Part shown: positions 42,362 to 57,576 of the stretch, one piece after another
Layout: every line of letters starts with the position of its first letter
Numbering within the stretch: position 1 is the stretch's first letter
Assembly: GCF_004209755.1 (NCBI RefSeq)
Contig: NZ_CP035913.1
Location: forward strand, 3,038,001-3,102,000
Length of the DNA stretch: 64,000 nt
Direction of reading: 5' to 3'
Origin: Pseudoduganella lutea
Lineage (GTDB): Bacteria > Pseudomonadota > Gammaproteobacteria > Burkholderiales > Burkholderiaceae_D
The notes under the pieces: generated by a model
Seen by the model: the letters and a program-made list of their open reading frames with translations, nothing else
Database searches by the model: none
Told to the model about the DNA's origin: nothing
Translations under genes and position numbers: made by a program

Positions 42362-42577
42362 ATGAGCATCAAGGCCATCAACGTCCGCAACCAGTTCCGC
42401 GGCAAAGTAAAGGAAATCATCGATGGCCCGGTCGTTTCGGAAGTCGACATCGAAACGCCGGCCGGCATCGTCACGTCGGTCATCACCACCCGTTCCGTGC
42501 GCGATCTCGGCCTGGCACCCGGCGTGGAGGTGGTGGCGCTGGTCAAGGCCACCGAGGTGTCGATCGCCAAGCTGTAA
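42362..42577 (+). CDS. SsuF/Mop-like molbindin (TOBE domain)
   Basis: 71-aa single TOBE-domain protein: MSIKAINVRNQFRGKVKEII, then EVDIETPAGIVTSVITTRSV. Such molbindins bind molybdate or small oxyanions as oligomers. A protein of this type, SsuF, is the last gene of the Pseudomonas putida ssuEADCBF operon and is needed for sulfonate use. Here it heads a cluster of sulfonate-type transporter and monooxygenase genes, so an SsuF-like role is likely. The ribosome site is AAGGAGAATCC. It lies 59 bp before the sigma-54 activator. Confidence 0.85.
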   Translation: MSIKAINVRNQFRGKVKEIIDGPVVSEVDIETPAGIVTSVITTRSVRDLGLAPGVEVVALVKATEVSIAKL

Positions 42578-42636
42578 CTACCGGTGCCGCGCCGCGGCAC
42601 CCGCATCCGCACCTTCAATACCATTTGCGAGGCACT

Positions 42637-43791
42637 GTGAACAAGGTACTGACTTTTCCCGATTCGTTCGGGATGGCGCTGTCGATCCGCGCCAAGGCAC
42701 TGTTATTCCACGATCCCCGTTCCCTTGCATTGCTCGAGCAGGTCGAACGGGTGGCGCGCAGCGATGCCACCGTGCTCGTCATCGGCGAGACCGGCACCGG
42801 CAAGGAACTCGTCGCCCGCCACATCCATGCGCAGAGCGAACGGACCGGCCCCTTCATCGCCGTCAATTGCGGCGCCTTCAGCGAATCGCTGATCGATGCG
42901 GAATTGTTCGGGCATGAAACGGGTGCCTTCACCGGCGCCACGCAGGCCCGCGCCGGCTGGTTCGAGGCGGCCAACGGCGGCACGCTGTTCCTCGACGAGA
43001 TCGGCGACCTGTCGATGGCGCTGCAGGTCAAGCTGCTGCGTGTGCTGCAGGAGCGGCAAGTGGTGCGCCTCGGCTCGCGCCGGCCGATTCCGCTAGACGT
43101 GCGCCTCGTCGCCGCCACCAACGTCGACCTGCACAAGGCGATCGCCGCCGAGCGCTTCCGCTCCGACCTGTATTACCGGCTCAGCGTCGCCACGGTGAAC
43201 CTGCCGCCCCTGTACGAGCGGCCCGGCGACATCCTGCCGCTGGCGCGTCACTTCATCGGCCTGTATGGCGCGAAGATGAAGCTGGACGATGTCGAACTGG
43301 GCGACGACGCGGCGAGCGCCTTGCTGGCCTACGACTGGCCCGGCAATATCCGCGAACTGGAAAACGTCGTCCATTACGCGCTGATCGTGTGCCGCCAGGG
43401 GCGTATCAGTGCGGAGGATCTGCGCATCGGCGGGCGCGTGCCCGGCAGCCGCGGCGCTGGCCCCATCGCGCCCACCGCGTCCATCTCCCAGCCCGCGGCG
43501 GTAAATCACGCCGTCACGCCCGCAGCGGGCTCGGGCCTCGACCGGCTCGACGCGCTGCTGAACGACCTGGTCGAAGCAGGCGAGCCGGCGCTATTCGATA
43601 CCGTCGAAGAACGCCTGATCCGCACTGCGTTTTCCGCCTGCGAGCAGAACCAGGTGCAGACGGCGAAGGCGCTGGGCATCAGCCGCAATGTGCTGCGCAC
43701 ACACCTGAAGCGCTTTGGCCTGATCGGCAGCGAGCCCGCCGGTGGGCTGCACGATACCCGGCCTTTCCACCGCCTGTCCGCCACGCTGTAG
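42637..43791 (+). CDS. sfnR: Sigma-54-dependent activator, SfnR-like, without sensor domain
   Basis: 384 aa from a GTG start with GAGG upstream. The AAA+ domain begins almost at the N-terminus: Walker A GETGTGKE, the sigma-54-contacting GAFTGA loop, Walker [13 protein letters not shown], and the arginine finger region [11 protein letters not shown]. The C-terminal Fis-type helix-turn-helix is [20 protein letters not shown]. There is no receiver, GAF or PAS domain, as in SfnR, the activator of dimethyl-sulfone and sulfonate-linked genes under sulfur limitation. It should fire the -24/-12 promoters downstream; activity would be set by its expression level. Confidence 0.85.
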
Positions 43792-43952
43792 TGTTCCGGC
43801 GCAGCCGCGCCGGAAACTTTTCTTCCCCGCCGTTTCTCCTTCGTTTCTCCTGCCTTCCTCCCGCTGTTGCGCCACTGTGCGCCAGCCAGCACGCCCTGCG
43901 CAGCAAGCAGCAGCCTGGCCGCGCCACAGGCCGTTTTACCCCCGTTTTTGCA

Positions 43953-43968
43953 TGGCACGAATGCTGCA
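43953..43968 (+). promoter_or_regulatory. Sigma-54 promoter of the amidohydrolase gene
   Basis: TGGCACG-AATG-CTGCA, one mismatch to consensus TGGCACG-N4-TTGCA, with the GG and GC pairs at the required spacing. It lies 50 bp upstream of the GTG start. Confidence 0.85.
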
Positions 43969-56291: not shown

Positions 56292-56392
56292 CTGTCTGAT
56301 TGCCATCACCCCGCCAACAGCGCGCGTGGTGATGGCTGTTGCGCGCGCAGCAGCACCGGGCCTGGTACCACGCAAAAGCACCGTAATCGCGA

Positions 56393-56408
56393 TGGCATGG
56401 AACATGCA
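56393..56408 (+). promoter_or_regulatory. Probable sigma-54 promoter of the second binding protein
   Basis: TGGCATG-GAAC-ATGCA, with the GG/GC pairs at correct spacing and two mismatches to consensus, 35 bp upstream of the ATG at 56443. Weaker than the sites at 43953 and 47170. Confidence 0.6.
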
Positions 56409-56442
56409 ACGAAGGGATGACCAACACCAGCGAGGGCATCCA

Positions 56443-57576
56443 ATGAAACAGGCAAGGCGCAGTTTTTTCGCAAGTACGTTGCAGTTCGCCGCGGGCATCG
56501 CGCTGGCCGTGACCGCGGCCCACGCGGTCGCCGCCGCACCGGCCGTGATCCGCGTGGGCGTCGCATCGCCGGCGCATGGCAGCCCGCCAGGCATCTCGGG
56601 CTCGTCGATCGCCGTCGCCCATGCCACCGGCGCGATCGAGCAGGAATTCAAGCCGGACAACGTCAAGATCGAATGGTATTTCTTCAAGGGCGCCGGGCCG
56701 GCCGTCAATGAGGCGCTCAGCAACCGCCAGCTCGATTTCGCCTTCCAGGGCGACCTGCCGTCGATCATCGGCAAGGCGGCCGGCCTGAAGACCCGGCTGA
56801 TCCTCGCCACCGGCATCCGCGCCCACATCTACCTGGCGGTGCCGCCCGAATCGACGATCCGCTCCGTGAAGGACCTGAAGGGCAAGCGGGTGGCCTTCTT
56901 CAAGGGCACGAACGGGCAGTTGCCGATCGACCGGTTGCTGGCCGCGCACGGCCTGACGGAAAAGGACCTGCGTGTGGTGAACCTGGACACGGCCACGTCG
57001 CAGGCCGCGCTGACCACGAAGGATATCGATGCCGTGTTCGGCGGTTACGACCTGATCAAGCTGCGCGACAAGGGCGTGGCCCGCATCGTCTACACCAGCA
57101 AGGGCGATTCACCCGTGTTCACGCGGCAGAGCCACATGCTGGTGACCGACGAGTTCGCGCAAAAATACCCGGAGCAGACGCGGCGCTTCGTGAAGGCCGT
57201 GGTGAAGGCGGCGCGCTGGAGTTCCGATGACGCGAACCGCGAAGAAGTGTTCCGCATGTGGGCCCGCACCGGTACGGCCAAGCTCGAACACTGGAAGGAA
57301 GACTACGAAGGCCAGCCGCTGCGCACCCGGCTCAGCCCCCTTTTCGATCCCTTCCTGACCGAGCGCTACAAGGATGCGGTCGAGCATGCCTACGAGTTCC
57401 GGCTGATCCGCAGGAAATTCCCCGTCGATACGTGGATCGACCGCAGCTTCCTGGATGCGGCATTGAAGGAGCTGAAACTGGAAAATTATTGGGCGGCCAA
57501 CCCGGCGGGCAAGCTGCCGACGACAAGCAGTTACGTCCCGGCAAAACCGGTGCCGGGCGGCCCGCGGCAATTGTAG
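56443..57576 (+). CDS. Sulfonate-type ABC transporter substrate-binding protein (second)
   Basis: 377 aa. A signal peptide with SFFASTLQFAAGIALAVTAA (cleavage near AHAVAA) precedes a TauA/SsuA-type body: FFKGAGPAVNEALSNRQLDF, SVKDLKGKRVAFFKGTNGQL, ELKLENYWAANP. The paralogy to the 48839 protein is plain (same KGxxxQL and EFRLIRR blocks), so the cluster has two receptors as well as two permease pairs. It follows the MFS gene by 150 bp with its own promoter. Confidence 0.88.
   Translation: MKQARRSFFASTLQFAAGIALAVTAAHAVAAAPAVIRVGVASPAHGSPPGISGSSIAVAHATGAIEQEFKPDNVKIEWYFFKGAGPAVNEALSNRQLDFAFQGDLPSIIGKAAGLKTRLILATGIRAHIYLAVPPESTIRSVKDLKGKRVAFFKGTNGQLPIDRLLAAHGLTEKDLRVVNLDTATSQAALTTKDIDAVFGGYDLIKLRDKGVARIVYTSKGDSPVFTRQSHMLVTDEFAQKYPEQTRRFVKAVVKAARWSSDDANREEVFRMWARTGTAKLEHWKEDYEGQPLRTRLSPLFDPFLTERYKDAVEHAYEFRLIRRKFPVDTWIDRSFLDAALKELKLENYWAANPAGKLPTTSSYVPAKPVPGGPRQL

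Follow-up and report, generated by a model that had tools for sequence, protein, structure and literature searches.

The stretch of the Pseudoduganella lutea genome analysed here (the window: 64,000 nucleotides, bases 3038001–3102000 of a 7.50-Mb single-contig genome) carries, between positions 42362 and 57576, a cluster of genes that frame calls and family scans place entirely on the forward strand (Table 1). Genes for a molbindin and for a sigma-54-dependent activator without a sensor domain are followed by a 226-bp gap that contains a promoter, and then by genes for an Amidohydro_2 protein, an NtaA/DmoA-family FMNH2-dependent monooxygenase (LLM), a porin, a substrate-binding protein (SBP1), four permeases, an ATPase, a nitroreductase-family protein, an MFS transporter and a second substrate-binding protein (SBP2). 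A preliminary description of this DNA had named these genes as one candidate organosulfur cluster; frames and family models confirm all of them, in one direction. The Amidohydro_2 protein, called an amidohydrolase in that description, is predicted here to be a dinuclear oxygenase of the amidohydrolase fold (ARO). Most notable is that it represents a predicted sulfur-linked clade of AROs that almost always stands without a Rieske partner.

Table 1 Features of the cluster, numbered from the first base of the window
Feature	Position	Strand	Basis
Molbindin (Mop-domain, molybdate-binding)	42362..42577	+	TIGR00638 68.7 bits, cut-off 55
Sigma-54-dependent activator without sensor domain, GTG start	42637..43791	+	PF00158, AAA_lid_14, HTH_8, GAFTGA
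Candidate activator-binding (enhancer) region	43863..43914	+	block similar across aligned loci
-24/-12 sigma-54 promoter TGGCACGAATGCTGCA	43953..43968	+	conserved columns in 7 loci
Predicted ARO (amidohydrolase of the preliminary description), 507 aa	44018..45541	+	PF04909 49.4 bits, cut-off 26.4
REP-like palindrome GGGGTCAGACCC-N3-GGGTCTGACCCC	45573..45599		between ARO and LLM genes
NtaA/DmoA-family FMNH2-dependent monooxygenase (LLM)	45676..47031	+	TIGR03860 593.9 bits, cut-off 279.7
Outer-membrane porin, OprO/OprP (DUF3138) type	about 47276..48820	+	homologue annotations; longest frame from 47234
SsuA-type substrate-binding protein 1 (SBP1)	48839..49933	+	PDB 3uif SsuA, 3.8e-53
ABC permease 1	49981..50877	+	PF00528; SaoP/SsuC-like, below cut-offs
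ABC permease 2	50887..51657	+	PF00528
ABC permease 3	51676..52503	+	PF00528
ABC permease 4	52517..53317	+	PF00528
ABC ATPase	53352..54170 (likely start; longest frame from 53175)	+	PF00005
NADPH nitro/flavin reductase family, NfsA-like	54192..55019	+	PDB matches 3n2s, 1bkj
MFS transporter	55023..56291	+	PF07690
SsuA-type substrate-binding protein 2 (SBP2)	56443..57576	+	PDB 3uif SsuA, 1.2e-51

By its residues, the 44018–45541 protein carries the ligand set of dinuclear oxygenases and not that of a hydrolase. The ligand positions are D28xH30, H254, E306 and D442xxH445xD447, and every one of the 209 close-group sequences (database proteins and loci encoding them, which overlap in part) has the full set. 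Within the genome, it was found in 1 of 8 PF04909 frames examined; this control started from nine places with frames picked by length, one of which (L149) was not recovered, and two of the eight (L147 and L148) have no recognised N-terminal motif. H254 and E306 align with both PtmU3 and DitZ, and D442 and H445 with PtmU3 (the last segment weakly, at -1.8 bits); the DxH pair (D28 and H30) lies outside these alignments and was matched by pattern. D447, the second-sphere acid, aligns with PtmU3 position 313, and an Asp or Glu at this place after the last His has been reported in binuclear members only (PMC7782822). Between the last His and the Asp stands a Trp throughout the close group (209/209); the 11 distant sequences have Phe (6) or Trp (5) there. 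The predicted structure fits PtmU3 best among the structures compared (VIA-align) and has the PtmU3/AibH2 fold. Given the dinuclear ligand set and the PtmU3-like model, we discarded the default assumption of amidohydrolase chemistry for this protein, and the earlier suggestion that an amidohydrolase points to an amide- or ring-containing substrate loses its support. ARO activity and an Fe/Fe or Mn/Fe centre are predicted from the ligand set.

Elsewhere, ARO genes lie largely among sulfur genes. Of 238 confirmed places, the 80 best were kept as the genome loci compared here, and cyanobacteria dominate among them. We counted as sulfur markers relatives of SsuA, SsuC-type permeases, TauD, AsfA and sulfate-transport genes and excluded LLM; an LLM-including count (65/67, 11/13 and 9/9) is superseded by this one. 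Markers lie near the ARO gene in 51 of the 67 loci from cyanobacteria, in 10 of the 13 remaining genome loci and in all 5 further loci (leaving aside L135–L138, which were found via the porin; L097 and L098 supplied reference proteins and match themselves), and near relatives of 37–44% identity, a small control, in 1 of 6 loci. In Pseudanabaena ABRG5-3, the ARO gene sits in an annotated island with sulfate permease genes and with genes for SsuC, two sulfonate SBPs, TauD and a TSUP transporter, and in Variovorax VAI-C it is followed by genes for an SBP, two permeases, an ATPase and TauD. AsfA-like genes occur in 10 of the 67 cyanobacterial loci; the one in a Nostoc locus (L023) shares 65% identity with part of the second replicon of Cupriavidus metallidurans CH34, for which the genome paper (PMC2864759) lists asfRAB. 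At L062, the ARO gene precedes those for an SBP, two permeases and an ATPase, and neither an LLM nor a TauD gene is visible before the contig end that cuts the locus; at L119, a relative of the SBPs alone was seen beside it. Together with the SsuA matches of both SBPs, described below, this context supports the sulfur reading of the cluster well.

In 62 of 89 loci, an LLM gene shares the strand of the ARO gene and lies within 700 bp of it; the LLM gene comes first in 57 of these and the ARO gene in 5, these being the relatives of the window. No LLM was found in 17 of the 89 loci, and the two enzymes may for that reason work in parallel and not strictly sequentially. Upstream of the LLM–ARO pair in three Nostoc loci stands a second ARO-like paralogue, 47–48% identical and with the same seven residues (L033:6046–7533, L035:6025–7533 and L038:3344–4834). 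Cyanobacterial ARO loci (among L019–L088) also often contain an aldo-keto reductase (55/67), an exporter-type ABC protein (51/67) and an alpha/beta hydrolase (50/67), and because a Rhodocyclales metagenome-assembled genome (L011) has the same set, the wider pathway may have more steps. On a plasmid of Azospirillum argentinense (L129), genes for AsfA/AsfB-like proteins, an SBP, an ATPase and a permease are followed by those for a 555-aa annotated amidohydrolase and an FAD protein.

Both SBPs are closest among solved structures to the sulfonate-binding SsuA 3uif, in line with the sulfonate-type uptake proposed earlier; the next-best matches reach 7.7e-12 against 3.8e-53 for SBP1 and 1.4e-16 against 1.2e-51 for SBP2. 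On the SsuA model TIGR01728 they score 115.5 and 154.2 bits, both below the cut-off of 163.5, which makes them SsuA-like and not SsuA proper. Solved structures matching the LLM are YtnJ/MoxC, nitrilotriacetate monooxygenase, DszA and dimethyl-sulfide monooxygenase, and its score on the SfnG model TIGR04021 is 65.3 bits, below the cut-off of 382.95. The nitroreductase-family protein matches NADPH-dependent nitro/flavin reductase 3n2s (3.9e-40) and flavin reductase 1bkj (7.5e-38) best and, with 181.5 bits on the NfsA model NF008033 (cut-off 223), is NfsA-like; because it most resembles NADPH flavin reductases among solved structures, it probably supplies FMNH2 to the LLM. The molbindin matches molybdate- and molybdenum-pterin-binding proteins in the PDB. 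The porin itself has no match in Pfam or NCBIfam; PF07396 (OprO/OprP) falls on 17 of the 120 homologues listed (547 found), several of those listed are named phosphate-selective porin or DUF3138, and the start at 47276 was taken from the length of P0121.

Four further genomes of the genus repeat this gene order, so the cluster is more than a chance arrangement. We found the porin in 5 of 74 genomes of the genus, that of the window included. In the other four (L135–L138, of which L137 and L138 are closely related), tblastn maps, used because longest-frame maps are unreliable in high-GC DNA, show the complete set in unchanged order. The search for this order in other genomes that the preliminary description had proposed as a check on the cluster as a unit thus succeeded in 4 of 4 porin-carrying relatives. 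Two of the four have an aldo-keto reductase gene between the activator and ARO genes, and one has an additional SBP1-like gene. Herbaspirillum sp. SJZ107 (L010) shows the same order plus inserted tauD and aldo-keto reductase genes (the stretch compared ends at the MFS gene), and the versions in Noviherbaspirillum malthae and Aquabacterium are rearranged. In L010 and L135–L138, the molbindin is 96–100% and the activator 79–86% identical to that of the window.

A sigma-54 promoter, also proposed earlier, is supported by the site before the ARO gene, which is conserved in seven aligned loci. The pattern TGGCAY-N5-YTGCW has its sole match in the window 49 bp before the ARO gene, and 17 of 19 columns at 43952–43970 are invariant in those loci, compared with 19 of 102 in the upstream non-coding DNA and 7 of 34 from the site to the ribosome-binding region. 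The promoter also directly precedes the ARO gene in L010 and in the two sister genomes in which an aldo-keto reductase gene is inserted. The site draws its weight from this conservation across loci; by window-wide count alone it is not significant, with 0.45 matches expected, and a stricter pattern with one mismatch has 2.9 expected in the window. In its architecture, the activator combines an AAA+ domain carrying GAFTGA with a Fis-type helix-turn-helix; the AAA+ domain begins near residue 25, which agrees with the earlier view that no N-terminal sensor is present. The block at 43863–43914 is a candidate enhancer.

The ARO gene is rare and patchily distributed. Overlapping genome samples gave these counts for the protein: at 1e-50, 2 of 294 genomes in the family; at 1e-60, 3 of 398 in the phylum (one just 41% identical) and 12 of 399 in the order (7 just 40–44% identical); at 1e-150, 1 of 249 in a different family. 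As its relatives among the best 80 of the 238 places are nevertheless 71–92% identical across phyla, this pattern suggests horizontal spread.

We think it probable, if well short of certain, that the cluster is a sigma-54-controlled operon for scavenging organosulfur compounds, most likely sulfonates, with two different oxygenases, the ARO and the LLM; the substrate and the cleavage of its C–S bond are what we infer. The sensorless activator would switch on the -24/-12 promoter ahead of the ARO gene, and the porin, together with two SsuA-type SBPs, four permeases and one ATPase, would import the compound. With its Fe/Fe or Mn/Fe centre, the ARO would probably hydroxylate a C–H bond of the sulfonate, by analogy with SfbO, which acts in this way on aminoethylsulfonates, to give an unstable product from which sulfite or an alkyl group departs. 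Attack at the sulfur-bearing carbon would release sulfite; TauD hydroxylates taurine, and sulfite leaves after attack on the carbon that bears the sulfur. Attack at an N-alkyl carbon would instead free a simpler sulfonate for the LLM, which, using FMNH2 probably provided by the NfsA-like reductase, would cleave C–S bonds of the same or a related compound, and the sulfite would then pass to cysteine synthesis. In some sister clusters, the aldo-keto reductase could reduce the aldehyde left by desulfonation, the task that an aldo-keto reductase has in the sulfo-ASMO route (PMC9594981). Only tentatively do we extend this to a dinuclear amidohydrolase-fold oxygenase that is a dedicated desulfonating enzyme of sulfur-starved bacteria and cyanobacteria, spread across phyla and mechanistically a separate type. 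Other known desulfonating kinds are flavin monooxygenases, TauD-type 2-oxoglutarate dioxygenases and Rieske oxygenases.

Several observations weigh against the operon with an ARO as we describe it. A small Rieske ferredoxin gene stands beside 90% of AibH2-like AROs, which is usual, not universal; in this genome the 13 Rieske places include none less than 280 kb from the cluster, and a Rieske motif was found in just 1 of the 89 loci (six control loci excluded). Sulfur markers are missing from 19 of the 80 genome loci, and the marker families include some with other ligands. Fold scores, PtmU3 aside, do not set AROs apart from decarboxylases. A mononuclear PF04909 enzyme, hydrolytic or decarboxylating, that removes a carboxyl, lactone or amide moiety either ahead of sulfite release by the LLM or following it would be the earlier amidohydrolase reading in broader form. 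It is nonetheless an unlikely identity for the 44018–45541 protein: its dinuclear ligand set is complete and includes the second-sphere acid, which is binuclear-only per PMC7782822, PtmU3 is the best fold, and the displayed decarboxylase alignments end ahead of the E306 and DxxHxD positions.

The cluster might serve a nitrogen- or carbon-source compound, such as an N-heterocycle or a chelator, and not sulfur, given that a nitrate transport protein is the second PDB match of both SBPs and that the LLM family takes in nitrilotriacetate monooxygenases. Nitrate and nitrilotriacetate are likewise handled by members of the SBP, permease and LLM families, and sigma-54 often controls nitrogen genes. 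We regard this as improbable, because SsuA comes first for both SBPs by a wide margin and because TauD, AsfA and sulfate-transport genes are neighbours of the ARO gene in other taxa. A pathway for sulfoquinovose (sulfo-ASMO-like) or another sulfosugar, in which the LLM frees sulfite and an aldo-keto reductase reduces the aldehyde, would share with sulfo-ASMO the logic of an LLM plus a PF00248 reductase (PMC9594981) and would account for the reductase of some sister clusters. It is very unlikely here: the LLM is NtaA/DmoA-type by score and not SsuD-type, the cluster proteins scanned include no glycosidase, the 15 PDB sequences that match the L137 aldo-keto reductase at 1e-40 name no sulfoquinovose enzyme (several of the names are generic), and the cluster in the window has no such reductase.

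If the ARO reading holds, many genes in cyanobacteria, betaproteobacteria and myxobacteria bear the wrong name; the ARO family would acquire a role in physiology and a class of natural substrates, and oxygenolytic desulfonation a further enzyme type. The enzyme would have been overlooked owing to its ‘amidohydrolase’ label and to the near-constant lack of the Rieske partner that is used for finding relatives, and loci in which an ARO accompanies an SsuABC-type importer and no further desulfonating enzyme is visible, such as L062, would be the minimal system. More than 95% of soil sulfur is organic, according to PMC4267179, and PMC7784912 ties moss colonisation by Nostoc to sulfonate use, which makes the Nostoc ARO loci of interest.

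Other features lie in or near the cluster. The REP-like palindrome at 45573–45599 (hairpin z -3.51) occurs at 38 places in the genome with up to 2 mismatches, compared with 0 for a reversed control pattern, and might influence transcript stability or read-through. Directly downstream of the cluster is a gene for a ScyD/ScyE-family protein (57727–58977; NF033206 310.3 bits, cut-off 80), which adjoins the cluster in L135 and L136 too. A class V aminotransferase gene follows at 59117–60313 and is 91% identical over the part covered by L135; the Noviherbaspirillum version contains a class V aminotransferase with a TAT-type signal (L009:12839–14305). A large SNF2-type helicase is encoded on the reverse strand at 36651–39971 (best model NF058637, 476.6 bits, cut-off 1200).

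The preliminary description knew of no system with this set and order of genes, and we found none in the open-access literature; in open-access full text we found no account of the gene set or of an ARO family tied to sulfonates, and the SfbO paper alone combines PF04909, oxygenase and sulfonate. The alkanesulfonate operons of the ssu type have the gene set ssuEADCB/F. The cluster shares with them SsuA-type SBPs, SsuC-like permeases, an ATPase, an FMNH2-dependent monooxygenase with a flavin reductase and a Mop protein; unlike them, it has an NtaA/DmoA-type and not an SsuD-type monooxygenase, an NfsA-like reductase, two SBPs, four permeases, a porin, an MFS transporter, a sigma-54 activator and a predicted ARO. 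A separate SsuA–LLM–SsuC–ATPase locus lies in the same genome at 5.53 Mb. The sfn system, which serves dimethylsulfone and is controlled by the sensorless sigma-54 activator SfnR, likewise ties such an activator to an organosulfur monooxygenase, a likeness drawn from description and not from sequence comparison; to our knowledge, it has no ARO, porin or ABC importer. AsfA/AsfB-like and TauD genes lie beside the ARO gene in some sister loci and are absent from the cluster in the window. Sulfonate genes are present in Nostoc strains, and a Nostoc punctiforme mutant in a sulfonate monooxygenase (Npun_F5882) fails to colonise feathermoss (PMC7784912). The predicted ARO has the PF04909 fold and the DxH/H/E/DxxHx[DE] residues of PtmU3, AibH2, SfbO and LynB7, and is longer, with 507 aa compared with 344–422 residues in the solved ARO and DitZ chains listed. 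A crystal structure of SfbO holds sulfate in the active site, and the enzyme hydroxylates MES and PIPES adjacent to nitrogen to yield sulfoacetaldehyde, although its authors doubt that PIPES is a natural substrate. Unlike most AibH2-like proteins, the group represented in the window is almost always without a Rieske neighbour and stands in a sulfonate-type transport context.

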